From Caldithrix abyssi DSM 13497 (GTDB lineage: Bacteria > Calditrichota > Calditrichia > Calditrichales > Calditrichaceae): DNA of 64,000 nt. A program made the translations under genes and the position numbers. Positions 13,276 to 55,319 of the stretch are shown piece after piece. The first letter of the stretch is position 1; each line of letters opens with the position of its first letter. Below the pieces are notes generated by a model. It was given only the letters and a program-made list of their open reading frames with translations, was not told the DNA's origin and searched no databases. Where the stretch lies: the NCBI RefSeq assembly GCF_001886815.1, contig NZ_CP018099.1:4710501-4774500 (forward strand), read 5' to 3'.

Positions 13276-13701
13276 ATGAAACAGGTTACCATTTCTAAAA
13301 AATTCGAGTTTTCGGCCAGTCATCGTTACTGGAACGCCGAATGGTCGGAAGAAAAAAACAACGAAGTTTTTGGTTTGTGCACCAGCCCTTACGGCCACGG
13401 CCACAATTATGAACTGCACGTTACGGTCAGCGGAAAGGTAGATCCGGTAACGGGCATGATCATCAATCTTTCAACGCTAAAAAAAATTGCCGGGAAAATT
13501 GTGGATCAGTTTGACCACAAATTCTTAAATCTGGATACGCCTTATTTTAAAGATCGCATCCCCACTACAGAAAACATTGCGCTGGTTTTGTTCGACCTTC
13601 TGGATGAACAAATCCGCAAGGAAAACGGCATCAAGCTGGAACGAATTCGCCTTTACGAAAGGCATGATCTTTATGTGGATGTCTGGCGGGAGGAAGAATG
13701 A
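13276..13701 (+). CDS. 6-pyruvoyl-tetrahydropterin synthase / QueD family protein 1
   Basis: A 141-residue PTPS-family enzyme. The Zn ligands H16 (SASH), H41 and H43 (GHGHNY) are present, with catalytic Cys35 (FGLCTSP), the D80-H81 pair (QFDHKFLN) and E129 (LYERH), which binds the pterin ring in the family. PTPS acts on 7,8-dihydroneopterin triphosphate to give 6-pyruvoyl-tetrahydropterin; QueD relatives make carboxytetrahydropterin for queuosine. The ATG follows an AGGAAGG site. It overlaps the second PTPS-like gene by 4 bp (ATGA), and GTP cyclohydrolase I, which supplies the substrate, follows. Confidence 0.93.
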   Translation: MKQVTISKKFEFSASHRYWNAEWSEEKNNEVFGLCTSPYGHGHNYELHVTVSGKVDPVTGMIINLSTLKKIAGKIVDQFDHKFLNLDTPYFKDRIPTTENIALVLFDLLDEQIRKENGIKLERIRLYERHDLYVDVWREEE

Positions 13702-14114
13702 GCCGTCGACAGATCAGCCTGTCTAAAGTTTACACTTTTAGCGCCGCGCATCGTTTACACGCGCCGCAAAAAGACGACGATTTTAACCGACGGATTTACG
13801 ACAAATGCAACAACCCCAACGGCCACGGCCACGACTACTACCTGGAGGTTACGGTGCGAGGGGCGGTTGACGAACAAAGCGGCATGATCATCCCTTTACC
13901 GACGCTGGACAGCGCGGTTCACTCGGTAATCGATCCGCTGGAGCACCGCCATTTCGATCTTGAAATCGACTATTTTAAAACGCGGCGCAGCACCGGCGAA
14001 GAAATCATTCAATTTTTGTGGCAGGAGCTCGAAAAATATTTAGGGAACAAACTTTTCAAGATTAAATTATGGGAAACGAACAACAACTATTTTGAACTGG
14101 AAAGGAAAGCCTGA
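13698..14114 (+). CDS. 6-pyruvoyl-tetrahydropterin synthase / QueD family protein 2
   Basis: A 138-residue paralogue of the preceding gene, translationally coupled to it by an ATGA overlap. Zn ligands H18, H43 and H45 and the catalytic Cys37 (DKCNNPNGHGHDY) are kept, and E126 occupies the pterin-anchoring position (LWETN). The usual Asp-His catalytic pair is replaced by E82-H83 (PLEHRHFD). The two proteins differ enough to be separate subunits or enzymes, for example a heteromer, or one PTPS and one QueD-like activity. The substitution is visible; its effect on activity is unknown. Confidence 0.92.
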   Translation: MSRRQISLSKVYTFSAAHRLHAPQKDDDFNRRIYDKCNNPNGHGHDYYLEVTVRGAVDEQSGMIIPLPTLDSAVHSVIDPLEHRHFDLEIDYFKTRRSTGEEIIQFLWQELEKYLGNKLFKIKLWETNNNYFELERKA

Positions 14115-14117
14115 AAA

Positions 14118-14690
14118 ATGAAAAGTATGGAAGAAGCCGTTCGTCAAATTTTGCTGGGCATTGGCGAGGATCCGGAACGCCAGGGATTGAAAAATACGCC
14201 GTTCCGCGTGGCTAAAATGTTTCGCGAAGTAACCAAAGGCTACCAGGCCGATCCCCAAAAAATCATTAACAATGCTATTTTTGATGTTGATTACGATGAG
14301 ATGGTGGTGGTGGCCAACATCGAATATTACAGCCTGTGCGAACACCATTTGCTGCCTTTTTTTGGCGTGGTTCATGTGGGCTACATTCCGCGCGGCAAAG
14401 TGGTGGGGCTGAGCAAGATTCCGCGCATTGTGGACATGTTTGCCCGTCGCCTGCAAATTCAGGAAAAAATGACGCTGGAAATCGCCCACCTGTTAAACGA
14501 CGCGTTAGACCCCGACGGCGTTGGCGTTGTGGTAGAAGGCCAACACATGTGCATGATGATGCGCGGCGTTCAAAAAGACAAAGCTAAAATGATCACCTCG
14601 GCCATGCTCGGCTCGTTTAAAGACGACGAAAAGACACGCGCCGAATTTTTAAGCCTGATAAGGAGTCCTCGCGTTGAAGCCCCCTATTGA
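14118..14690 (+). CDS. folE: GTP cyclohydrolase I
   Basis: A 190-residue enzyme that converts GTP to 7,8-dihydroneopterin triphosphate, the entry step for folate, biopterin and queuosine. The Zn ligands C74, H77 (CEHHLLPF) and C145 ([10 protein letters not shown]) are present, as is the [20 protein letters not shown] core. Length is typical of the bacterial FolE core. It starts 3 bp after the second PTPS gene and overlaps the SDR gene by 17 bp, so it belongs to a tight pterin operon rather than a folate operon; no other folate gene is nearby. Confidence 0.96.
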
Positions 14691-20052: not shown

Positions 20053-23000
20053 ATGGTTAACAAAATTATCCTTGGCATTTTTATTTGTGTTATTTCCGTT
20101 CTGGGCAATATTCAGCAAAAGCTGATTGAAGCCAGAGCGGCAGAACGTAACCATGATTATTCGGCAGCGATAAAACTGTACCAACAAGTCCTGATGGCTG
20201 AGTTTACTTCCAAAGAGGCATGGCAGGGGCTGCTGCGCACCGAAGCGGCAAAAGAAGTTCAGGCTTTAAAGCTTCCCCGGGACAGCGATACCTGGAGCCA
20301 CCAGGCCGGCAAAATATATTTAAAATACTATCAATATCCTACTGCCATTCACTTTTTGCAAAAAGCCTATCAGACGCAAAAAAAGCAAAATTACCTCTTT
20401 GACCTGGCCACCGCTTATTTAAAAGCGGGCTTTAACAACAAATGTATTTCCATTCTAAACGCCGAGGCCCAAAAGCATTCCAATGACGGGCTGTACTTAA
20501 AAGGGATTGCCGAATTTTACTTTAAAAACCGCCTTTATGGGCAGGCGGCAAAATTTTTTGAGCAAAGCCTGAAATTTAAGATTCAAAGCGACACGCTCTA
20601 CACGCAATACGCCCGTTGCCTGGAAAACCTCGGTCGTTTAGAAGAGGCTGAAAAACTTTTCGAAAAAGGCGTTAAACAATTCAAAACGCCCTTTATTTAC
20701 ACCGAATTCACGCGTTTTTTTATTCGCGCCAATCAATTTGAAAAAGCGCTAAAAATTGCAGAAAAATCCGAAGATGAATTTAACACCGTTGAAGTCTATC
20801 TAAAATTGAAAGGGCGTCCGGCGGTCATTGAATACTTTCGTCAACTTCAAAAAAAGAATCCGTACCATCTGGCTTATTACATCTGGATTGCAGAGCTTTA
20901 CTCACTGGAACAACAATACCAACAGGCCGAAAAGGTTTTAAAAGAAGGACTGATCCGCTTTCCCACCAACGAGCAGATGTGGGAATCGCTGGCAAAAGTT
21001 TATACAAACCTTGAAGAATTTGACCGCGCGCTGGATGTTTACAAAAAACGATTGCCGCAAAATACGCCCAATCTCAAGCAACAACTTCGGTTGTACTTGC
21101 TAAAAAAAGACCTGAAAAACGCTCAAAAGATCATCAATCAATTAAAAACGCAAAAGGCTCTGTCTGACCAGGAACTGGCCGGAATGTATGAAAAGAACTT
21201 TCCTGTGAAGGCCGAAGAAATTTACAGCGCGCTTTTAAAGACCACTCCGCAAGATGCTCGCCTTTTAAATCAGTATTTCAACTTTCTAAAAAAACAGAGA
21301 AATTATGACCGGGCCATTCATCTCGTATTGCAACATGCCCCCCAAAATGTCTCCTGGCTGATCCAGAACGGTTCGGCCATTTTACGCTTTTTGTGTTTAA
21401 ACGGTTATGGCGAAAAGGCGACGGAATTGGCTCACCAATTTATTCTGGCGCAGGAAAACTGGAAGAACATTCTTTCTCCACAGGTTTATCAGCCTTATTT
21501 AACGACGCTGCGCTGGACCGGCGCCAACCGTGAATACTTTGTGTTTCTTGAAATACTGCTGGAATTTGATCCGGACAATCATGCACTCTATCAGGAAATC
21601 GCTCAGTTGTACGAACAAAATGAAAACTGGAAAGAAGCGCTGTATTACTACAGAAAACTATTAAAAGAAAATCCGCACGATGTTTTTTTGCGGTACAAAA
21701 TGGCGACCATGTACGCCAAAATGGATCAACGACAAAGAGGATTGCAGGTTCTGGGCAAAAGCATTTCCACTCAAAAGCGCAGCCCGCTCGAACTCTACTA
21801 TTTATCGCGCTTTTATTATGAGCAGGGCTACTTCGAACAGGCCTTAGCCATTATTAATCAAATAGTGGGCAAAAAGATTTCGCCTGAGGCGTATTTTGAT
21901 GATCCTTATGGCTTTGAGCTTAAAACGGAAATTCTGGAAGCTTCCGGTAAATTAACCGATGCCTTTAACACTCTCGAACAATATGTGCGCGAATTTCCAA
22001 ATGAATTGCAATCTCATCAACTGCTGGCGGAATACCTGTACCGACACGGCGATTTTATGCGCGCTGAGGCCGAGTACAAAAAAATATTCCAATTGAATCC
22101 GCAAAACTTCACCGTGCTGCGCCGCATCGCCCTGTGTATGGTCTATCAAAACAAAGTAAAAGAAGCATACCACTTTCTGGAAGAGCAAATTAAAGCCTCG
22201 CCTTACATTAACGAAGAAGATATTGACTATTACAAAGGTTACGTGGCGCACATCATGAACGATTATCCCACCGCTCTGCGCTACTATCAAACCGCCCTGC
22301 AAAAAAACGCGAATAACTCCCATATTCTGCTGTTACAGGGCATTTTGTACGAAGAAACCGAAGAACTTGAAGCCGCGCTCCGTGTTTTTAAAACGGCCCT
22401 GGCCAGGGACTCCGCCTTTACAAGGTACGACAAGTTAGGCGACATCTACCGTCACATGCATGATTACAAAAAAGCGCTTAATTATTACGCGCTTTACCGA
22501 AATGTCCGTCCGAATGATCTGTCTGTATTTCCCTCCATTGCCATTTGTTACAAAGGCCTGGGCAATGAAGAAGAAATTTACAATTTGATCGGCATGCTGC
22601 AGAGTTTTCCTGAATCGCCAGAGCGCGCCCTGCAAGAAGCACGGCTTTACGAGCTGCTGGAAAACTTTGTCGTTGCCGAAAGAAATTATTTGCGATCCAT
22701 CTTACTGCAGTCTGGCGTTACGCCCGCCTTACGTTCCCTGGCGCAATTGTACATCAAAATGGGTAACTTTCTGGAAGCCGAAGTCTGGACGCGAAAATAC
22801 TTTGAAGCAGCCCCCCAAAGCCCCTACAATATGGATTTAATGGGCGCCTATTACATGGAATCGCAGGACTTTATCTCCGCCGAGTACTGGTTCCGCAAAA
22901 TAAACAACGATATTCCCTGGTACTACTTTGCCCGGAACAATCTGGGGCTGGTTTATTTGCATAAAGGCGACTATCAGAAAGCCAGAGAAATATTGAAAGA

Positions 23001-24834
23001 ACTGAGCGCCACTCACCCCGAGCATTCGGCTTTTCGCCGTAACCTGGCATTATGCGAAATTCGTTTAAACAATCTGTCCGATGCCAACAGTATTTATTCA
23101 AACTTAATCAAAGAGCGGCCTTACAACCTCAAGAACTACATCGAGTACGTCCGCTTTATGCTGTTTTTTAAAAACGATGTGCGCCGAGCCCGCGATGTTT
23201 TAAACAGGGCTTTAAAAATGGCGCCGCACAACAAAGAGCTAAAGGCCCTGGATTATTTACTGATGGCTTACGAAGGCAAGGCCAAGCAGGCCATTAGCGG
23301 ATTGCTTGACTTACAAACCTATTACAACGACAACAACCGCCATGCCCAGGGAACCCTTGCCCTTTACCTGTCTCTGGCCTACGAGAAAAACAAAGATATT
23401 AAAACCAGAAATGAATACCTGGCCATAGCCCAGAAAATGGACCCCAATGATTTTTGGATCGATGAAATTCATGCCAGGAAAGCCATCCCCTTAAAAGTGG
23501 TAGCCATTAGCGAAAAGCCGGAAGTCATTGCCGCCCAGCAAAAGCAGGGATTGATGGATACCTTTCAGAAATATGAAGATCGTTTTACCAGTCTGGAATT
23601 GAATGATCGTTTTAGCCTGTCGCAGGTTTCAACAGAAAAGGTTAAGGAAAAAATTGATAAACAATCCGAGTTTGACGTGAGCATTGCGCCGGACAATTTA
23701 CGCCATACAGCCGGTCTTAAGCTCATTCAGGCGCCTAAAATCATCATTACCGCGCCTAAAGACGGGCACCACACGCGCGCTTCTTCCATCAACGTCGAAG
23801 GCTTTATCACCCAGGGCAAAAAACCTGTGGCCTTCGATTTAAACGGTAAAAAAATTACGGAATATGGCAAGAATGTAAAAATCCAAAAAATGCCGGATCC
23901 TGAAACCTATCCCAACGCCATCCCCTTCCGCGTAACCGATTTTCCCCTCGTCCCTGGCGCCAACTTTTTGACCGTACACGCTAAGTTTAAAGACAACTAC
24001 GAAACACAAAGCACCATCAGAGTGGGCAGAATTGCCAAATTGTTGTACGCCTTTGAAACCATTCCCAAAAGAGCAAAAGGCGTCAATCGCTGGGCGTTGA
24101 TTGTCTCTAACGAAGATTACGAAGACCCACGAATCCAGGACCTGCCCAACGCCCAATATGATGTGGATGCGTTTAAGAGGTTTTTAACCGCATCCAACGG
24201 GTTAGACATTCCGGAAAGCAACATCCTGACACTGTCCCTTTCTACGGGTATTCAACCAACGCGATCGGCGGTAATTGACGGCATCAAAACTATTGCCCGC
24301 TACGTGGAGCCTCAGGACGAGGTGATTATCTTTTACGTGGGTAACGCACTTATTATTAACAACGGTTCCGGTTCGCAACAGAGCTTTACCTTTCTAATGC
24401 AGGACTCTCAGATAGACAAGCTGTACAGCACGGGCATCAATATGGAGTTTTTCCATCTCATTTGTAAATCCATTCCGGCTTACAAAGTCAGTTGTTTTCT
24501 GGAGGCCAATCTTTTTGAGAATAATTCCAACCGTCTGGAAAAATTGACCGCATTGAGTCCCATCAAATTCGATTTTGCGGACAACAACAAAGAGCCTTAC
24601 GTAAACATCCTTATTATGGGCAACGGCCTGACGACGACGCCATCGAATGCCGCAAAACCCAGCCGATTTACTTCTAATTTGATTAAGGCTTTGAAAGGAG
24701 CCGCCGATAGTAACAAAGACAAAAAAATCACTTTTGATGAGATTTTTAATTATTTGAAAGCGCGAATTCGCAACCATGAAATTGTTTTGGGGAACTTTCA
24801 ACACAAAATGACCTTGTTTGGTTTACAAAATTAG
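20053..24834 (+). CDS. Giant periplasmic TPR protein with C-terminal catalytically dead caspase-like domain
   Basis: A 1593-residue protein. A hydrophobic N-terminus (residues 1-19) looks like a signal peptide. Residues about 20-1180 are a long array of TPR-type helical repeats (for example YKKALNYYALYRNVRPNDL). Residues about 1225-1335 form an Ig-like beta domain (IIITAPKDGHHTRASSINVEG). Residues about 1346-1590 match the caspase/metacaspase (C14) fold: RWALIVSNEDYED, LPNAQYDVDAFKRFL, then DEVIIFYVGNALI. Where active proteins have GHG and DACHSG, this one has GNA (about 1429) and EANLFE (about 1483), so His and Cys are both missing. An EF-hand-like DSNKDKKITFDE loop lies near the end. It leads an apparent operon with TolQ- and TolR-like genes. 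Confidence 0.88.
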   Translation: MVNKIILGIFICVISVLGNIQQKLIEARAAERNHDYSAAIKLYQQVLMAEFTSKEAWQGLLRTEAAKEVQALKLPRDSDTWSHQAGKIYLKYYQYPTAIHFLQKAYQTQKKQNYLFDLATAYLKAGFNNKCISILNAEAQKHSNDGLYLKGIAEFYFKNRLYGQAAKFFEQSLKFKIQSDTLYTQYARCLENLGRLEEAEKLFEKGVKQFKTPFIYTEFTRFFIRANQFEKALKIAEKSEDEFNTVEVYLKLKGRPAVIEYFRQLQKKNPYHLAYYIWIAELYSLEQQYQQAEKVLKEGLIRFPTNEQMWESLAKVYTNLEEFDRALDVYKKRLPQNTPNLKQQLRLYLLKKDLKNAQKIINQLKTQKALSDQELAGMYEKNFPVKAEEIYSALLKTTPQDARLLNQYFNFLKKQRNYDRAIHLVLQHAPQNVSWLIQNGSAILRFLCLNGYGEKATELAHQFILAQENWKNILSPQVYQPYLTTLRWTGANREYFVFLEILLEFDPDNHALYQEIAQLYEQNENWKEALYYYRKLLKENPHDVFLRYKMATMYAKMDQRQRGLQVLGKSISTQKRSPLELYYLSRFYYEQGYFEQALAIINQIVGKKISPEAYFDDPYGFELKTEILEASGKLTDAFNTLEQYVREFPNELQSHQLLAEYLYRHGDFMRAEAEYKKIFQLNPQNFTVLRRIALCMVYQNKVKEAYHFLEEQIKASPYINEEDIDYYKGYVAHIMNDYPTALRYYQTALQKNANNSHILLLQGILYEETEELEAALRVFKTALARDSAFTRYDKLGDIYRHMHDYKKALNYYALYRNVRPNDLSVFPSIAICYKGLGNEEEIYNLIGMLQSFPESPERALQEARLYELLENFVVAERNYLRSILLQSGVTPALRSLAQLYIKMGNFLEAEVWTRKYFEAAPQSPYNMDLMGAYYMESQDFISAEYWFRKINNDIPWYYFARNNLGLVYLHKGDYQKAREILKELSATHPEHSAFRRNLALCEIRLNNLSDANSIYSNLIKERPYNLKNYIEYVRFMLFFKNDVRRARDVLNRALKMAPHNKELKALDYLLMAYEGKAKQAISGLLDLQTYYNDNNRHAQGTLALYLSLAYEKNKDIKTRNEYLAIAQKMDPNDFWIDEIHARKAIPLKVVAISEKPEVIAAQQKQGLMDTFQKYEDRFTSLELNDRFSLSQVSTEKVKEKIDKQSEFDVSIAPDNLRHTAGLKLIQAPKIIITAPKDGHHTRASSINVEGFITQGKKPVAFDLNGKKITEYGKNVKIQKMPDPETYPNAIPFRVTDFPLVPGANFLTVHAKFKDNYETQSTIRVGRIAKLLYAFETIPKRAKGVNRWALIVSNEDYEDPRIQDLPNAQYDVDAFKRFLTASNGLDIPESNILTLSLSTGIQPTRSAVIDGIKTIARYVEPQDEVIIFYVGNALIINNGSGSQQSFTFLMQDSQIDKLYSTGINMEFFHLICKSIPAYKVSCFLEANLFENNSNRLEKLTALSPIKFDFADNNKEPYVNILIMGNGLTTTPSNAAKPSRFTSNLIKALKGAADSNKDKKITFDEIFNYLKARIRNHEIVLGNFQHKMTLFGLQN

Positions 24835-24878
24835 CTTTACAGCACAGCGCAGCCATTACTAAAATGGGAGGCATTATA

Positions 24879-26246
24879 ATGGAAAAGCAAAATCCTGCAG
24901 ACCCCGTTTCAACGAAAAGGAAAAGCGCGCTTCGGTCGCTCTCTTTAACCCGCAGCTTGCTTTTAGGCGCCGGGGTGACGCTGGTTGTTTTAATAGGCGT
25001 GTATTACCTTGGTCAGATCAAAGGTTTTGAAAATATACGCGCGCTTTTTTTGGAACGCGGATTCATTCAATACCTGATTACCTTTTTAGGCGCCTGGTCG
25101 TTTTCCATTTCCTTTTTAAAACAGCGAGAAATAAACTGGGAAAAACATAAAGCCGCTGAGACCAAAAAGCATTTTCACTGGACGGTATCGGAAAATGTGG
25201 AGGAAGCGTTAAAAAATATTATCAAAGCGGTGCCGGGCGTTGAACGCACGCGCCTCTTCCAACGCATCCAAAGGGCTTTTAGCGCCTTCCAGAGCGGCAT
25301 GGAAAGCAACGATTTAAGAGACGCCTTACTGGAACAAAGCGACCGGGATTCTGAAAACGTTGAACTCAGCTACACGATTTTACGTGTGCTGGTGGCAGTC
25401 ATCCCTCTTTTAGGTTTTACGGGAACCGTGCTGGGCATCAGTAACGCGGTCGGTAATTTCTCCTCGGTCATTGAAACGGCCCGCGAACTGGAACAGGTGA
25501 CAAGCCATCTGGGCGGCGTGACCACCGGCCTGGCCGTGGCCTTCGACACCACGCTGCTGAGTTTATTGATTACCGTGCCTTTAATGATGTACACCTCCGC
25601 TTTAAAAAAACGCGAAGACGAGCTTTTGCTGGAAATCGACGAGTTCTGCGAATACGAAATTCTTGATCCCATCTTTCAGGAAAAAAGCAAAGAAAAACAT
25701 TTAGTCGATATCATTGAACACCTGGATCAAAAAGTTCTGGAAGACCATGTTGCAGCTCTGACCAAAACAGTCAATGTTTTAAGCGATTTAAACGTAAACA
25801 TTCAAAAACATCAAACCTTATTTGCCGATTCGCTCCAGAAGTACAGCGAAGTTAGTAACGCATTGGTTCAAATCAGCAAAAACCAGGAATTCTGGGCCGA
25901 TCAAATCATGTCGCTGGAAAAAGTAAACAACCACCTGGAAGCCATTTTCTCCTCGCTGAAGGCCCTGCCCGAAGGCATGAAATCCGTTTTACTCAAAACG
26001 CAGGAAAGTTATTACCAGGGCCTTATTAGCGAAATGAACAAAATAATCCAGACCTTTGAAGCCAAAGACAGCAAGACGAGCGAAAAATTAAACGCTTACC
26101 TGACCTACGAAGAAGAGATGCAAAAATCGTTACAACAGACCATGGAAAAAATCCATACCGGCCTGGCAGAGTTAAAGCCGATTTTAGAAAACCTGAACAA
26201 ACCCGTGACCATTACCCTTTCGCATCAATCGACAATCAACAAATAA
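24879..26246 (+). CDS. MotA/TolQ/ExbB-family channel subunit with long C-terminal coiled coil
   Basis: A 455-residue inner-membrane protein. The ATG at 24879 is chosen because GGGAGG lies 7 nt upstream; the ATG at 24864 would precede that site. Four hydrophobic segments (about residues 27-46, 62-80, 167-190 and 216-241) resemble MotA topology. The MotA_ExbB core is clear in VIPLLGFTGTVLGISNAV and TTGLAVAFDTTLLSLLITVP, with D223 inside the last helix. Residues 245-455 are a largely alpha-helical, coiled-coil-rich tail expected in the cytoplasm, much longer than in TolQ. Homologues form proton- or sodium-driven motors. It lies 44 bp after the TPR gene and 16 bp before two TolR-like genes. Confidence 0.9.
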   Translation: MEKQNPADPVSTKRKSALRSLSLTRSLLLGAGVTLVVLIGVYYLGQIKGFENIRALFLERGFIQYLITFLGAWSFSISFLKQREINWEKHKAAETKKHFHWTVSENVEEALKNIIKAVPGVERTRLFQRIQRAFSAFQSGMESNDLRDALLEQSDRDSENVELSYTILRVLVAVIPLLGFTGTVLGISNAVGNFSSVIETARELEQVTSHLGGVTTGLAVAFDTTLLSLLITVPLMMYTSALKKREDELLLEIDEFCEYEILDPIFQEKSKEKHLVDIIEHLDQKVLEDHVAALTKTVNVLSDLNVNIQKHQTLFADSLQKYSEVSNALVQISKNQEFWADQIMSLEKVNNHLEAIFSSLKALPEGMKSVLLKTQESYYQGLISEMNKIIQTFEAKDSKTSEKLNAYLTYEEEMQKSLQQTMEKIHTGLAELKPILENLNKPVTITLSHQSTINK

Positions 26247-26262
26247 GAACTGAGAAAGAACT

Positions 26263-26736
26263 ATGGCCAGGAAACGTTCCGAAGGTTTTTTACCGACATT
26301 ATTTCCTTTTTTAAGCATCTTAACCTGTACGGCAGGCGTGCTTTCTTTTATTATTATTTCCATTAGCGTGGTTTCTCTGTTGGCCCCGAGCATCATGGTC
26401 ACGTCAAGAGATACTACCACAAAAAACCCAAAAAAACCGACCTATGTGGAATGCCATCCGAATTATCTGCTATTAACTCAAACGCAGGATCAAATTCCTT
26501 ATGTTCAGATCGACCAACCGCGTTCGCCCTTTCGCCTTTTTCTGCAACAGATAAAGCAACGGGCAGACAGTACGTACATTGTATTCGCCATTTATCCAGA
26601 AGGCGAACGGACGTTCAGAAGGGCGTACCGCTTAATTAGCGAATTAAACAAACAATTAGCCTTACAGGGCGCTAAAATCGACATCGGATACGAACCATTT
26701 AACAAAACGTGGCATTTACAAGTTGGCAGGGATTAA
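26263..26736 (+). CDS. TolR/ExbD-like protein A (lacks the membrane Asp)
   Basis: A 157-residue protein with a short cytoplasmic N-terminus, one transmembrane helix (about residues 12-40) and a periplasmic domain of about 115 residues ending in an alpha/beta TolR-like pattern (TYIVFAIYPEGERTFRRAYRLISELNKQ). In ExbD/TolR the helix begins with a conserved proton-carrying Asp; here the aligned segment is FPFLSILTCTAGVL, with Ser in that place. The gene sits directly between the TolQ-like gene and the second TolR-like gene. Family assignment rests on size, topology and context more than on strong motifs. Confidence 0.78.
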   Translation: MARKRSEGFLPTLFPFLSILTCTAGVLSFIIISISVVSLLAPSIMVTSRDTTTKNPKKPTYVECHPNYLLLTQTQDQIPYVQIDQPRSPFRLFLQQIKQRADSTYIVFAIYPEGERTFRRAYRLISELNKQLALQGAKIDIGYEPFNKTWHLQVGRD

Positions 26737-26739
26737 CCG

Positions 26740-27273
26740 ATGAGACGGCGAGGTAAAAAATCTACTGGCTCATTTAGTTTTAATATCGATTCTTTAATGG
26801 ACATTGTAACCAATATTGTGGGGATGCTGGTCATCATTGGCATTATCAGCAGCCTTTCATTACGCTCTAAAGATTTTGTATTCGAAACGCCGATGGTTTA
26901 TGAAACGGAAAAAGCGAGCATCATTTTCGAATGCAGAAATAACCAGCTATTCCCTGTTTCGCAAAATGCCGAAACGTTTTACTACCGCACCTATGCCGCC
27001 TATCAGGAGGTGTTAATCCCCGTGCCTGACGCGCAGGGCGAGAGTATTGCCGAAATCAGCCAGCCCGGTTCCATATTTTACGAAATGTTGAATCAAACCG
27101 ATCCCCAAAAACAATTTTTTTACTTTATTGTGCGCTCCGATAGCTACGACATTTTCAGAGAAGCGCGAAAACTGGCCTGGGAAAAAAATATTGAAGTGGG
27201 CTGGACGCCCAAACCGAAAGATGAAATCATTCTGTTTTCGCCTTACGGCGAAAGAACAAAAGTGGTCGATTAA
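26740..27273 (+). CDS. TolR/ExbD-like protein B (keeps the membrane Asp)
   Basis: A 177-residue single-pass protein. The N-terminal segment FNIDSLMDIVTNIVGMLVII places Asp21 at the start of the transmembrane helix, the position of the essential Asp in ExbD and TolR. The periplasmic part contains FFYFIVRSDSYDIFREARKLAWEKN, a pattern seen in TolR-like domains where the chain reports a residue-by-residue strand and helix. It starts 3 bp after protein A ends. The pair is expected to form a heterodimer in the pore of the TolQ-like pentamer, with only this subunit able to carry ions through the Asp. Confidence 0.8.
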   Translation: MRRRGKKSTGSFSFNIDSLMDIVTNIVGMLVIIGIISSLSLRSKDFVFETPMVYETEKASIIFECRNNQLFPVSQNAETFYYRTYAAYQEVLIPVPDAQGESIAEISQPGSIFYEMLNQTDPQKQFFYFIVRSDSYDIFREARKLAWEKNIEVGWTPKPKDEIILFSPYGERTKVVD

Positions 27274-27276
27274 TTC

Positions 27277-28677
27277 ATGGTAGATTTCAAGATGAGCGGA
27301 ATGCAAAAAAGTCTTATTTTGTTGTTATTTCTTTTCATTTTTGTGGGATGTAAAAAACAGGAAGCCACGCCTTCCGACGCTTCCGGCCAGGCCATCTCCT
27401 TTATCAATGTGGTTCACAAAAAAGGGGTGGTAGATATTCTACCGCTTGACAACCATCGACTGCTTTCCATCGGTAGAGACAGCCTGGTCATTTTATGGCA
27501 AACCGATTCGGCCAGAGCCATGGCTTTTAAGCGCTTACGCCGAACGCCGGTGGCGCTTGCCAGATCCGTGAACGATCCGGCTTCGTTCTGGCTCTTTTTA
27601 GAAAAAGGTGTTATCTTACAATTGTCCATACCGGAGCTTGCGGTAAAAAATCAGATTCAGACCGTATTTAATAACTTTGCCAGGCCGCTGCTTTCCCTTC
27701 CCCAAAAGGTATTTTACGCCAGGGCCGATTTAAATCTGGTTTTATTCGATCCGCTTAAAGCCTCTGTCAAAATCCAGCCTTTTGCTTTAAATTTTAAGGA
27801 CGCTATTTCTGTGGCCAGAACCCAACCGCTTCTGGTCCGCTTTCGAGATACTCAGGCCCGGTTATTCGATTTGCGTACGTTTAAAGGACTCTCTTCTGTC
27901 AATCTGCCTCGTTTCAATTCCAGAACAAAAGCGCCGCGCTTGATAACCTTTGTTGATGATCATTTTTGTCTGGCGGCCCACGCTGAAAACCTGTGGTTAA
28001 TCGACTGGAACCGGCGGCAGGCGCGCATTCTACCGCGCAATCATCTGGCGCCCATCACGGCTCTGGCCGCTTCTAATTCATTAAAGATGTTTTTCAGCGG
28101 CTCCATGGATAAGTCGATTAAAGTGTGGGACATGGATTCACAAGAATTAAAGGCTTCGCTTTACGGCCATTTTTTCAATATTAACCGGTTGGTAGTCATC
28201 GATTCCACCCAAAGCCTGATCTCCGCTTCGGAAGACGGCACCATTCTCATTTATGATTTACATAATTTTGAGATGGTAAAACGACTGGGCGCCATGGAAG
28301 TCGCCTTAAAATCGCCCTGGCAACTGACCATCACCTCGGTTTATCCGGCGCGCTCTTTTAAGGTAGGAACTGACGAATACAACGTGTCGGAACGTGGAAG
28401 CCGACTTTTAAAAGTAAACGCCGAAATAAAAAATATCTCGCCGGCCGACGCCATATTTTTTTCCTCCAACTTTTTTATCATTGATTCGTCCAATGCCAGA
28501 ACGCCCTGCGTGGGGCTTGAAAATTACGTGGCTCTTGGGCCCGATGCCTATTTCAAAAGGCTTATTTCCCCCGGTAAATCCATTAAAGGCACCTTTATCT
28601 TTGTGATTAAACCACCTTATCAAAAATACCGACTCACCTACGAAACCCTGCCGCCCGTTTCATTGCAAGACTTCTGA
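27277..28677 (+). CDS. WD40-like beta-propeller lipoprotein with DUF4352-like C-terminal domain
   Basis: A 466-residue protein (shorter if the in-frame ATGs at 27292 or 27301 are used; none has a strong ribosome-binding site). The hydrophobic segment LLLFLFIFVGCKKQ ends in a lipobox, with Cys at residue 25 from the first ATG or 17 from the third. Repeats such as ITALAASNSLKMFFSGSMDK, KVWDMDSQE and LISASEDGTILIYDL are WD40 blades. The last 120 residues (LKVNAEIKNISPADAIFF, then NFFIIDSSNAR) resemble the Ig-like DUF4352/TRF2-like fold. It starts 3 bp after the TolR-like gene and closes the operon; the likely role is an envelope-anchored scaffold. Confidence 0.85.
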   Translation: MVDFKMSGMQKSLILLLFLFIFVGCKKQEATPSDASGQAISFINVVHKKGVVDILPLDNHRLLSIGRDSLVILWQTDSARAMAFKRLRRTPVALARSVNDPASFWLFLEKGVILQLSIPELAVKNQIQTVFNNFARPLLSLPQKVFYARADLNLVLFDPLKASVKIQPFALNFKDAISVARTQPLLVRFRDTQARLFDLRTFKGLSSVNLPRFNSRTKAPRLITFVDDHFCLAAHAENLWLIDWNRRQARILPRNHLAPITALAASNSLKMFFSGSMDKSIKVWDMDSQELKASLYGHFFNINRLVVIDSTQSLISASEDGTILIYDLHNFEMVKRLGAMEVALKSPWQLTITSVYPARSFKVGTDEYNVSERGSRLLKVNAEIKNISPADAIFFSSNFFIIDSSNARTPCVGLENYVALGPDAYFKRLISPGKSIKGTFIFVIKPPYQKYRLTYETLPPVSLQDF

Positions 28678-28783
28678 TAATCTTTCTGGTTTTAATTTTT
28701 ACCCTCCTTTCATTAGACTGCAACATTCATTATTGATTTCCGTAAATCGTTAAAAAGCGGTTAACCAATCAGGGAGTAGAACA

Positions 28784-31429
28784 ATGAAAGTTTTTTACAA
28801 AGGATTTGTATTTTTTTTCATGTTAACCACCATTGTTTTAGCAAAAGATCAGATTTCCCGAAAAACCTGCCAGGCCTATCCTGTCAATTCCGTAGCTCCC
28901 AAGATCGATGGCAAACTGGATGATCCTTGCTGGCAAAAAGCGCCTTTTCAGGATTCTTTTGTGCAGATCAAACCGGTTGAGAACGCCACGCCTTCTCAAA
29001 AAACAAATTTCAAAGTTCTGTATGATAAAACCAATCTTTATGTGGGCATTGTCGCTTACGACACGGAACCGGATAAGATTGAATCTCAGATATCTCGTAG
29101 AGATCAGATTAACAGCAGCGATTTTCTGGCCGTGGCGCTAGATAGTTATCTGGATAGACGCACGGCTTTTGTGTTTGGCGCCAATCCAGCCGGCGTTAAA
29201 TCCGATATTTTAATTTCCGAAGACGGGAATCGGCAGGATGAAAGTTGGGACCCGATATGGGAAGTCAAAACAAGCGTCACCGATTCCGGCTGGATTGTGG
29301 AAATGCGCATTCCCTTTAGCCAGTTGCGCTTTGCCCAAAAAGCCAGTCATACATGGGGTTTTCAGGTCTATCGTAAAATTTACCGCAACCAGGAAGAAGA
29401 CATGTGGCAATACATTCCCAGAAACGCCGCCGGATTCGTTTCCTATTTCGGAAATCTGACGGGCCTCGAGGGCATTCACTCGCCAAAACGCGTGGAATTC
29501 CTTCCTTACGCCGTCAGCCAATTACACCTGTTTCAGGCCGAACAGGGCGATCCCTTCGCCACCGGTCGCGACTTCCGCTTCGACTTTGGTTTGGATGGAA
29601 AAATCGGAATTACCAGCGATCTGACCATGGATTACACCGTCAACCCGGACTTCGGGCAGGTGGAGGCCGATCCTTCCGAGGTCAACCTTACCGCCTTTGA
29701 AACCTTTTTCGAAGAGAAGAGACCTTTTTTCATCGAAGGCAAGAATATCTTTGAATTTACGCTGGCTATGGGCGACGGCGATATGTCGCAAGAAAAGATC
29801 TTTTATTCCAGACGCATTGGCCGCTCGCCGCAATACTACCCTTCCGCAGACGACGGTTTTAATTACGATTTTATCGACATGCCGGAACAAACGCGCATTT
29901 TAGGCGCCGCCAAACTCAGCGGCAAAACCAGCAAAGGCTGGTCCATCGGCCTGCTGGACGCTGTTACCAATGCGGAAAAAGCCGTCATTGACGACCAGGG
30001 CCGTCGGCAAAGCGTAACCGTGGAGCCGCTGACCAATTTTCTGGTCGGTCGTCTGCAAAAAGATTTTGACGAAGGCAACACATCCATAGGCGGTATTGTA
30101 ACGGCAACCAACCGCCAGATCAACCAAGATTATTTAAAATTTTTAAACAAATCCGCCTACACCGGAGGCATTGATTTTCGCCATCAATGGGCTAATAAAG
30201 CCTATTTTGTCAACTTTAAACTGGTCGGCTCTCACTTAATCGGAGATCCAAAGGCCATTACGCGCGTTCAGGAATCTTCAGCCCGCTATTTTCAACGACC
30301 GGACGCCGACCATGTTAAGTACGACACCACACGTACCACCCTTTCCGGCCATGGCGGCACGTTTGGCATTGGCAAAGTGGGCAACGGCAACTGGCGTTTT
30401 GCGGTAGGCGGCCTCTGGCGTTCCCCCGGCCTGGAGCTCAACGATGTGGGCTTTTTGCGTCGCGCCGATCAGATCATGCAGTTTTTGTGGATCGGCTACC
30501 GACTTAACAATCCCATCGGTATTATTCGGCGCGCCGATCTGAACATCAACCAGTGGCAGGCCTGGAACTTTGCCGGCGACCAGCTGTTTTCCGGCGGAAA
30601 CATTAACGGCGGCATTCAGTTCACCAATCTCTGGGGCTTTTACACCGGCATCAATCGCCAGCAGGACGGCTATTCACCGTATTTATTGCGCGGCGGCCCG
30701 CTGGCGCGCTACACCGGTAGCTGGAACTTCTGGATAAGAGGTTACAGCAATCAGTCCAGGGACTATCAGTTTGCCGTTTCCGTGGGAATCCAGCGCAATG
30801 ACGATGCCGTTTCTAATGGCTACCAGGTACGCTTTAACTATTCCCAAAAAGTTAACAACCGTTTAAAAGTGGAAATCAATCCCTTTTACGCCTTTAATCG
30901 CGATAACCTGCAGTACGTCTCCAGGGAAACGTTTCAAAATGAAGATCGTTATCTATTTGCCAGACTCATTCAAAATACCTTTGGCGTGGTTTTCCGTTTG
31001 AATTACAGTCCAACGCCCAATCTTTCGTTCCAGTATTACGGACAGCCTTTTATTTCTGCAGGCAAATACAATCATTTTAAAAGGATTACCAATCCACGCG
31101 CTAAAGGAAACGACCGCTTTCAGGAATTTGACGCCGAACAAATTGTTTACGACCCGCAAGACGAAACGTACTACATCGATGAAAACCGCGATGGCGTGAC
31201 AGACTATTCGATCTCCTACCCGGATTTTAATTTTAAAGAATTCCGTTCTAATTTTGTGATTCGCTGGGAATATCAACCGGGCTCCACGCTCTTTTTGGTG
31301 TGGACGCAAAGCCGTAATGATTTTATCGGCAACGGCAGCTTTCAGGCTTTTTCCGATTTTAAACAATTATTCGGCTCCCGCCCGGACAATGTTTTTTTGA
31401 TCAAGCTGAATTACTGGCTGTCCATGTAA
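28784..31429 (+). CDS. Outer-membrane protein with N-terminal CBM9-like domain and DUF5916 barrel
   Basis: An 881-residue protein. A signal peptide (about residues 1-20) precedes a CBM9-like beta-sandwich (VAPKIDGKLDDPCWQKA through about residue 215, with the YVGIVAYDTEPDKI strand). The rest fits DUF5916, with TMDYTVNPDFGQVEADPSEVNLTAFETFFEEKRPFF followed by a long series of amphipathic strands ending in KLNYWLSM. These proteins are common in Bacteroidetes and Calditrichota-like genomes and are thought to be outer-membrane barrels; substrate and role are unknown. A 106-bp gap from the WD40 gene and a terminator after it suggest a separate transcription unit. Confidence 0.9.
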   Translation: MKVFYKGFVFFFMLTTIVLAKDQISRKTCQAYPVNSVAPKIDGKLDDPCWQKAPFQDSFVQIKPVENATPSQKTNFKVLYDKTNLYVGIVAYDTEPDKIESQISRRDQINSSDFLAVALDSYLDRRTAFVFGANPAGVKSDILISEDGNRQDESWDPIWEVKTSVTDSGWIVEMRIPFSQLRFAQKASHTWGFQVYRKIYRNQEEDMWQYIPRNAAGFVSYFGNLTGLEGIHSPKRVEFLPYAVSQLHLFQAEQGDPFATGRDFRFDFGLDGKIGITSDLTMDYTVNPDFGQVEADPSEVNLTAFETFFEEKRPFFIEGKNIFEFTLAMGDGDMSQEKIFYSRRIGRSPQYYPSADDGFNYDFIDMPEQTRILGAAKLSGKTSKGWSIGLLDAVTNAEKAVIDDQGRRQSVTVEPLTNFLVGRLQKDFDEGNTSIGGIVTATNRQINQDYLKFLNKSAYTGGIDFRHQWANKAYFVNFKLVGSHLIGDPKAITRVQESSARYFQRPDADHVKYDTTRTTLSGHGGTFGIGKVGNGNWRFAVGGLWRSPGLELNDVGFLRRADQIMQFLWIGYRLNNPIGIIRRADLNINQWQAWNFAGDQLFSGGNINGGIQFTNLWGFYTGINRQQDGYSPYLLRGGPLARYTGSWNFWIRGYSNQSRDYQFAVSVGIQRNDDAVSNGYQVRFNYSQKVNNRLKVEINPFYAFNRDNLQYVSRETFQNEDRYLFARLIQNTFGVVFRLNYSPTPNLSFQYYGQPFISAGKYNHFKRITNPRAKGNDRFQEFDAEQIVYDPQDETYYIDENRDGVTDYSISYPDFNFKEFRSNFVIRWEYQPGSTLFLVWTQSRNDFIGNGSFQAFSDFKQLFGSRPDNVFLIKLNYWLSM

Positions 31430-31482: not shown

Positions 31483-31513
31483 AACGGTGTTGTTTAAGGC
31501 AACACCGTTTTTG
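31483..31513 (+). terminator. Intrinsic terminator after DUF5916 gene
   Basis: AACGGTGTTG (31483-31492) and CAACACCGTT (31500-31509) form a perfect 10-bp stem with a 7-nt loop and a short T run. Confidence 0.88.
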
Positions 31514-53423: not shown

Positions 53424-55319
53424 TTACCGCAGTAAAATCATTTTTTTACTGGCCCGGTAGTTTCCGGCTTTAAGCATATAGATGTAAACGCCGCTGGCCA
53501 GATCGGCGGCATTTAATCGGTATTCGTAGCTACCCGCATTTTGCTGCGCATTGACCAGTTCCATCACTTTTTTGCCGCTCAAATCATAAACAGCCAGCTC
53601 AACATGCGCGGCTTGCGGCAGGTCGTAACGGATACTGGTGAATGGATTAAATGGGTTGGGATAATTTTGCGCCAGATAAAAGCCCTGCGGCAGACCGCTT
53701 TTAAGCTGATTGATGGCGCTGGGTGGGTTGCCCAGATCGACTTTGGCGGCAACCATGACCTCTTTAGTGTCATCGTTTTGCACAAAGGCGATCAATTCGC
53801 AATTTTCTTTGACCACATCGGCCGGGATGTCAAAAGTAATGCTGTTCTGCACCTGGTCTCCGGCAGAAGGCGCGCTGGCGCTTTCCCATAACTTTGTGCC
53901 GTTGGCATCGGGAATCATCAGACGTTCCACAAAGTGCAGAGAATCCATGCTTGTTTCCCAGTTGTAGGCAATATGCGATTCGCACAATGCCCAGCGGATG
54001 TAGAGATTTTTATCGAAGGTTACGCTTTCGTAGGTAACGGTAGCGGTGGCAGAGATGGAATTTCCGTTTTCGGTCCAGGCAATATCCATGGTAAAGGGCG
54101 TATATTCCTGCCGTTCAGCCTGGTACAACGCTTCATAATCGGCGTAAATGCCAGACCAGTCGCTGCCTGCCGATGCCCCGCCCACGCGCTTCCGGTCGCC
54201 GCCAAAGTAACAGGTCGGGTAGGCGCTTACGCCGTAATAGGAACGGCGCGCCGAGGCATACGAATTGTCAAAAGGATCGTTGCCGCTGAATCCGCCATGA
54301 TAGGCAATAATAGCGACATTATTAGGATAAGCTTTATACAGACTGTCCAGCGCTTCTGCGGCCCCGGGGCAATAGGTACACTCGGTGTCTGTAAATTCTT
54401 CGGGCAAAACAACCTCTTTTTGACTGGCGTAGGAGTTGATAAACTTTGTGGCAATATCATTGCTCGCATCCTGATCGGTGCTTAAAAGGGTTTTAACGTA
54501 AAAGGTGTAGCCTTCCTGGGCAAATGTGTAGTTATCAAAGGTTACCTGCTGTTTGGCCCCGGGCGCAAGAGCGGTTACGGTTTTGGTGCTTATGGCCACC
54601 GGATTGTCGTTCCAGTCGTAATAACCAAATTCAACATCAAACGTTTCCGTGTTTTTGCCCTCGTTTTTAACCGTAGCCATCGGCTGAACCGTTGTGTTTG
54701 GCGCGTAATGCGCGTCCATATCCAGCGAAAAGGCCATCACATCGTGATCTGATGGAACGACAACTTTTACATCGTCTATGTACCACTGGTAGTTAGGACT
54801 ACCAGGATTGGAATAGTGAAAACCTACATAAACCGTGCTCTGCCCGGCATAAGCCGAAAGATCAACCTCAACCACGCCGCCGGAAAAGCCTTCGATAGTG
54901 TGATTGGAAGGCGTCATTTCCAGAATTGTGGTAAAAGATGAACTGCTGCTGGGCGATGTGGTAGAAACGGCGATATAATGCGTGCCGCCGCCGCTTTCCC
55001 AGCCATCAGCATCCTCGTAAAAATAGAGCGTGGCTCTGGTTACGCCCGACAGATCCAGAGCCGGCGTTACCAGCCAGATATCGCAGGGGTAAATAAATTG
55101 CACTTCCGCCAGGGCCGAATATGAACCCGTTCGACTTTTTTCTGAGCTTTGCTGCCAGCTTTCTAACGAAAAACTATCGGAAAACTTCGTCCATCCGCTG
55201 GGCGGAAAGCCGCTTTCAAACGACTCGTCAAGAATAGCATTAGAAACCTTGTTCACTCCCCCAAAAACCAATGTGATAGATAAAAATAAAAGAGCAAAAG
55301 AAAGTATTAATCCTCTCAT
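53424..55319 (-). CDS. Omp28-family secreted protein with MAM-like N-domain and T9SS sorting domain
   Basis: A 631-residue protein. After a signal peptide comes a jelly-roll (choice-of-anchor J / MAM-like) domain (SFESGFPPSGWTKFSDSFS, about residues 30-190), a CARDB-like Ig domain (about 192-295), then an Omp28-type thioredoxin-like domain with LPEEFTDTECTYCPGAAEAL (Cys314, Cys317) and VSAYPTCYFGGDR. The end is a T9SS type A sorting domain (QNYPNPFNPFTSIRYDLP ... GVYIYMLKAG). It should be exported by the type IX system and may carry a redox-active CxxC. Stop is 77 bp from the next gene of the cluster. Confidence 0.9.
   Translation of the reverse strand: MRGLILSFALLFLSITLVFGGVNKVSNAILDESFESGFPPSGWTKFSDSFSLESWQQSSEKSRTGSYSALAEVQFIYPCDIWLVTPALDLSGVTRATLYFYEDADGWESGGGTHYIAVSTTSPSSSSSFTTILEMTPSNHTIEGFSGGVVEVDLSAYAGQSTVYVGFHYSNPGSPNYQWYIDDVKVVVPSDHDVMAFSLDMDAHYAPNTTVQPMATVKNEGKNTETFDVEFGYYDWNDNPVAISTKTVTALAPGAKQQVTFDNYTFAQEGYTFYVKTLLSTDQDASNDIATKFINSYASQKEVVLPEEFTDTECTYCPGAAEALDSLYKAYPNNVAIIAYHGGFSGNDPFDNSYASARRSYYGVSAYPTCYFGGDRKRVGGASAGSDWSGIYADYEALYQAERQEYTPFTMDIAWTENGNSISATATVTYESVTFDKNLYIRWALCESHIAYNWETSMDSLHFVERLMIPDANGTKLWESASAPSAGDQVQNSITFDIPADVVKENCELIAFVQNDDTKEVMVAAKVDLGNPPSAINQLKSGLPQGFYLAQNYPNPFNPFTSIRYDLPQAAHVELAVYDLSGKKVMELVNAQQNAGSYEYRLNAADLASGVYIYMLKAGNYRASKKMILLR

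Follow-up and report, generated by a model that had tools for sequence, protein, structure and literature searches.

Five closely spaced genes of Caldithrix abyssi encode a giant TPR protein, a MotA/TolQ-like channel subunit, two small TolR-like proteins, and a WD40-like lipoprotein, a set that raises the question of whether they form one energized envelope machine and, if so, of what kind. The window analysed here, the whole stretch of 64,000 nucleotides in which they lie, is part of a complete genome of 4.98 Mb. A first-pass annotation had seen no described counterpart of this set, and a literature search for a system combining MotA, caspase, and WD40 components likewise found none.

Gene content of the cluster

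All features of the cluster given below by coordinates lie on the forward strand. As the first-pass annotation stated and the ORF coordinates confirm, the five genes run in one direction with gaps of 44, 16, 3, and 3 bp; the first of these gaps presumes that the A subunit starts at 24879, at an ATG behind GGAGG, an earlier ATG giving a protein of 460 aa. A gene for an outer-membrane protein with CBM9 and DUF5916 domains (28784–31429) begins 106 bp past the WD40 gene and is found downstream in all four Caldithrix genomes. In the interval from 28677 to 28784 a consensus scan detected no terminator-like site; this gene is probably the sixth member of the unit, which would be closed by a terminator-like hairpin with a 12-bp stem (31483–31509; a consensus match only). 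The first-pass annotation had mentioned neither this probable sixth gene nor the missing aspartate of TolR1 described below, and it had missed that the two TolR-like proteins are paralogues. At 13698–14690 of the window, as judged by eye, a pterin-synthase-like gene stands immediately before one resembling GTP cyclohydrolase I.

The first gene (20053–24834) encodes a TPR protein of 1593 aa with an Ig-like stretch and a C-terminal caspase-like domain, as delineated from the ORF and from Pfam, NCBIfam, and PADLOC matches. Many Pfam TPR families match it, TPR_19 at 1.6e-49. Residues 2–20 form a hydrophobic N-terminal stretch, and a signal peptide is clearer in one orthologue (L037), consistent with the predicted location of the protein outside the cytoplasm. 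The caspase-like domain (residues 1347–1476; 24091–24480) matches the NCBIfam model caspase_w_EACC1 at 6.9e-12, under that model's cutoff, and the PADLOC caspase model at 1.2e-7. In place of the His-Cys dyad of active caspases, all four Caldithrix orthologues have GN or GQ instead of the expected GH and Asn instead of the expected Cys; because both catalytic positions are replaced in every orthologue, the description of the domain as a dead caspase holds. The fifth gene (27277–28677; 466 aa) matches Pfam WD40 at 2e-13 and, C-terminally, DUF4352 at 4e-8, and a lipobox-like F-V-G-C was seen by eye, in keeping with its earlier reading as a WD40-like lipoprotein.

One A subunit and two unlike, probable B subunits

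The second gene (24879–26246) encodes a protein of 455 aa that passes the cutoff of PF01618 (MotA_ExbB) (1.6e-13; 50.9 bits against 22.9) and for which a profile search of PDB returned TolQ as the closest relative. Its coiled C-terminal tail of about 215 residues, which together with the PF01618 match bears out its identification as a MotA/TolQ-like channel with a long tail, ends in the motif LKPILENLNKP (26172–26204), common to proteins encoded on Anabaena and Microcystis plasmids. Comparison with other A subunits places D223 (25545–25547; AFDTT) in the last transmembrane (TM) helix, where A subunits of the group with two B subunits mostly have D or E (AF[DE]TT), whereas ordinary ExbB/TolQ proteins have the hydrophobic ALLTT. 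In a tree of A subunits, in which the window's own sequence is represented by its three orthologues, the two-B type splits from ordinary ExbB/TolQ with 99/99 support and long branches. MotA-like genes also adjoin genes for FHA and PP2C-type phosphatase proteins at two further loci (L010, L145), one belonging to a Calditrichota genome and one to a Rhizobium plasmid; we know of no description of this motor context.

The third and fourth genes encode TolR1 (26263–26736; 157 aa) and TolR2 (26740–27273; 177 aa), each with a TM helix and a putative TolR-like periplasmic domain. The two window proteins match no Pfam family, PF02472 included, no PADLOC family, and no meaningful NCBIfam family. AF2 models (pLDDT 80.6 for TolR1 and 75.5 for TolR2) predict in both a TM helix followed by a b-b-(b)-a-b-a-b domain. 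Among 350,542 PDB chains, the best fold match of TolR2 was E. coli TolR (5by4), although weak (E 0.019, probability 0.72); the corresponding search with TolR1 did not find TolR, and profile searches of PDB sequences with either protein gave chance matches only. Alignment with ordinary ExbD by hhalign reached a nonsignificant 2–3%, with the register right for TolR2, and the Anabaena TolR1 matches PF02472 (ExbD) at 0.0036, its 17.8 bits falling under the cutoff of 25.4. The predicted topology, the 5by4 match, the sub-cutoff PF02472 match, and the operon position together make it likely that TolR1 and TolR2 are B subunits, and with the aspartate register described next they support the proposed kinship with TolR.

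The TolR1 and TolR2 profiles can be aligned from end to end (hhalign 99.1%, 1.8e-18). Ser18 of TolR1 (26314–26316), which occupies the place of the essential TolR/ExbD aspartate, then faces Asp21 of TolR2 (26800–26802); as far as sequences go, the two are thereby shown to be paralogues in register. Asp21 lies in the TolR/ExbD aspartate register (NIDSLMD against NLTSLID and SASLSDIV, ordinary ExbD of the same phylum). TolR2 has the single TM helix and the essential aspartate of a B subunit, and TolR1 has the helix but a serine. The alignments show this loss in TolR1, and retention in TolR2, to be systematic. FPF-type TolR1 proteins have S, T, or A at the essential position in 19 of 19 sequences (17 plus two plasmid sequences, the latter read by eye), and the TM segment has no other acid in 18 of them, the exception being G129 with a Glu at +13. 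Their TolR2 partners keep the aspartate in all 16 that could be read. High-GC loci (L115, L117–L119) were partly read and stand outside these counts except for TolR1 of G443. In the wider two-B group, the sister loci of G338 (L112) and G174b (L120) have the aspartate in both B subunits, so its loss marks the FPF-type subgroup.

Distribution of the trio and its neighbours

The five-gene set is present in all four genomes of the genus Caldithrix and in none of the 36 other Calditrichota genomes (40 in total). Within the genus, the flanking genes for M3 peptidase, DUF5916, NfeD, and SPFH proteins keep their order too, so the fact that the five genes stay together there says little in favour of a single machine. 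A genome scan with a Caldithrix-only A-subunit alignment rested on genus-specific peptides and returned the three sister genomes only. One GenBank record titled Caldisericaceae (JAGHBR010000071.1, L044) matches a contig of the Caldithrix-genus genome G001, and its organism name looks wrong.

A domain-wide sample of 385 genomes was searched with TolR1 and TolR2 profiles, which matched in 12. The order A, TolR1, TolR2 is found in Caldithrix (4/4), in G129, G401, G311, G431, G174, and G452, and on two cyanobacterial plasmids. In G129 the trio is followed by a 613-aa protein with a TM helix, in G401 (L116) by a weakly TPR-like membrane protein and PrsW, and in the family of G311, G431, G174, and G452 it carries long inserts. 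G117 (L055/L058) has TolR1, TolR2, a TPR protein, and PrsW, and the four-genome class of G352 has TolR1 and TolR2 followed, at the three loci where a third gene is visible, by a HEAT-repeat lipoprotein; no A gene adjoins the pair in loci whose upstream side can be seen. Exported or membrane solenoids thus recur beside the TolR pair: TPR in G117, weakly TPR in G401, and a HEAT lipoprotein in family f40. A gene for a PrsW-family intramembrane protease lies 3' of the TPR gene in the unrelated G117 and G401 (PF13367 at 1.2e-33 and 1.9e-15). G311 has, in addition, a second A–TolR1 pair that lacks TolR2 (L074) and, at another locus, a solitary TolR2-like gene that lacks an A gene (L057); together these may represent one copy of the system that has been split. 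A TolR2 match in G006 (L043) looks like chance, lying inside a lipoprotein region, and was discarded. Viral contigs searched with A-subunit and TolR1 profiles, and phages searched by tblastn, yielded no relatives.

The trio is therefore shown to be conserved as A, TolR1, TolR2 in distant lineages, which upholds the part of the first-pass annotation that pointed to the core of a motor driven by proton motive force, made up of a single TolQ-like subunit and two that resemble TolR. The TPR pseudocaspase and the WD40 lipoprotein are Caldithrix-specific partners, and only the middle three genes travel across phyla. Conserved synteny of the five families had been proposed as a check; the order of the trio is kept in distant lineages, but the outer genes join it only in Caldithrix, where the flanks are also syntenic, and the view of the five genes as one conserved machine is not sustained.

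The plasmid relatives were found by tblastn. On pANACY.03 of Anabaena cylindrica, the A subunit of the window finds a match at 3e-30 (86% covered, tail included), and on p1 of Microcystis aeruginosa NIES-2481 a full-length match at 1e-22 with the same tail. After each A gene come genes for a TolR1 of 153 aa and a TolR2 of 231 or 236 aa; in single pairwise comparisons, the Caldithrix and Anabaena proteins match at 1e-20 (TolR1) and 3e-24 (TolR2), so that all three subunits are orthologous at the level of BLAST. The pANACY.03 trio starts 78 bp past a CARF-HEPN gene (PADLOC 5e-255), the last of a type III-B cmr operon; viperin is encoded close by. The Microcystis trio starts 149 bp past a PLD-SNF2 helicase gene, itself adjoining a SMODS cyclase, a SLATT effector, and a type IIG enzyme (CBASS/SLATT). 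A DUF559 protein is encoded near each plasmid trio. No description of an ExbB motor linked to defence in cyanobacteria came up in a search of the literature.

A candidate motor and competing readings

The trio resembles TolQR/ExbBD in its A core, in the register of the TolR2 TM aspartate, in the predicted TolR-like periplasmic topology, and in the order A then B. It differs in having unlike B subunits, one without the aspartate, a long A tail, and an acid in the last TM helix of A; PF02472 does not exceed its cutoff, and TonB or TolA was not seen beside the trio. GldLM is likewise an ion-driven motor acting across the envelope, but the trio has two B subunits, and C. abyssi, which tumbles and has flagellar and type IV pilus genes, is reported to lack the Bacteroidetes-type gliding machinery (PMC5317091). 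The portion of a 2025 MotAB survey drawn on here places proteins of this type among generic ion transporters that carry additional domains without a known function, and the trio is not described there (PMC12505986).

With AglRQS of Myxococcus xanthus the cluster shares one A and two B genes and exported TPR proteins in the machinery. AglQ and AglS, however, both have the aspartate and match PF02472 strongly (6.7e-18, 3.1e-15; PMC9389320, PMC3169522), whereas TolR1 has neither; the match in stoichiometry type to the Agl motor that had been noted reduces to gene count, and membership in AglRQS is ruled out. Zorya shares a MotA-like A subunit with a long cytoplasmic tail and, in cyanobacteria, defence-island neighbours. 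Its single B subunit, ZorB, has the aspartate and a peptidoglycan-binding domain with Pal-like residues, and its effectors are ZorC/D or ZorE (PMC11890865). In contrast, TolR1 and TolR2 lack an OmpA/Pal Pfam match, the window A subunit does not match the PADLOC ZorA models at E<=0.1, and PADLOC gives no Zorya match for the genes that adjoin the trio in the window, where no ZorC, ZorD, or ZorE was seen. These three findings rule out membership in Zorya, and the judgement that the set fits neither Zorya nor Agl is borne out.

The reading that we favour, by a modest leaning, takes the products of the middle three genes to be an inner-membrane motor that is powered by ions and belongs to the TolQR/ExbBD/MotAB (5:2) kind. 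Its axle would be a heterodimer in which TolR2 supplies the sole proton-binding aspartate and TolR1 none. In Caldithrix it would act through the envelope on the exported TPR solenoid with its dead caspase and on the WD40 lipoprotein, the DUF5916 outer-membrane barrel probably being a further target; these partners point to the delivery of force or signals to the outer envelope. Elsewhere the motor would pair with other exported solenoids or stand alone among defence genes. We infer the 5:2 assembly, the heterodimer, rotation, the transfer of force to the partners, and their task at the cell surface; since partners differ among lineages, it is adjacency that links them to the motor. In known 5:2 motors, two dimer aspartates work in alternation, with 10 ions per turn, and current models swap protonation between the two, taken as equivalent, in 36-degree steps (PMC9389320); in MotB/PomB both are essential, in unequal surroundings (PMC12215075). 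If TolR1 and TolR2 form a joint axle, only one helix would load protons, and the motor would either take up 5 ions per turn or follow another cycle. A 2022 review stated that 5 instead of 10 ions would demand an entirely new model, and treated as unsettled whether AglQ and AglS form hetero- or homodimers (PMC9389320). Both the ion count and the dimerization of B paralogues would become directly testable in a natural motor, conserved in distant lineages, of whose two axle helices one is live and the other dead.

The main alternative, to which we give appreciable but clearly minority weight, is that a TolR2 homodimer forms the axle and that TolR1 sits outside the pore, in an accessory or regulatory role. 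Loss of the aspartate would be expected in a paralogue that had left the pore, and TolR1–TolR2 pairs without an adjacent A subunit occur in f40 and G117. Yet the TM segment is the most conserved part of TolR1 (FPFL-S-I-L-x-C-x2-G-x-L) and shares the G and L of the TolR2 segment in register, and the A–TolR1 pair standing alone in G311 would be expected if TolR1 packs within the A ring. It is about as improbable that the Caldithrix trio and the TPR and WD40 genes are mere neighbours: their pairing is limited to a genus in which flanking genes keep their order as well, but the WD40 gene follows TolR2 by 3 bp, the trio follows the TPR gene by 44 bp on the same strand, and in other genomes, too, the TolR pair has solenoid proteins as neighbours.

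The plasmid relatives mean that a Zorya-like defence role is to be reckoned with: the trio would be mainly an anti-phage or surveillance motor in which ion-driven sensing of envelope perturbation is coupled to the cytoplasmic tail and effectors. Both plasmid trios lie inside defence islands (CRISPR III-B/CARF-HEPN and CBASS/SLATT), the long C-terminal tail is conserved, as in ZorA, the spread over the sampled genomes is patchy, and the Anabaena A subunit matches ZorA at 1.7e-8, although ZorA matches of the cyanobacterial relatives are weak and the Microcystis PLD-SNF2 helicase has only a minor ZorD match. We nevertheless hold this reading to be rather unlikely, given that the defence-island cases number two only, that ten proteins flanking the Caldithrix unit have no PADLOC match, that the locus is fixed in all four Caldithrix species with exported partners, and that no effector gene is constant. 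With the defence-island copies there is, besides Zorya, a second lead to motors driven by ions in immunity. Least probable by far is a gliding motor like Agl-Glt: exported TPR and outer-envelope proteins do accompany the one A and two B subunits, and there is a weak GltE TPR match (2e-8, far under cutoff), but TolR1 and TolR2 do not match PF02472 as the aspartate-bearing AglQ and AglS do, and for C. abyssi tumbling alone, not gliding, has been reported (PMC5317091). As a separate observation, the window encodes at 53424–55319 a protein with a Por_Secre_tail, a type IX secretion sorting domain, though the gliding machinery is reported absent (PMC5317091).
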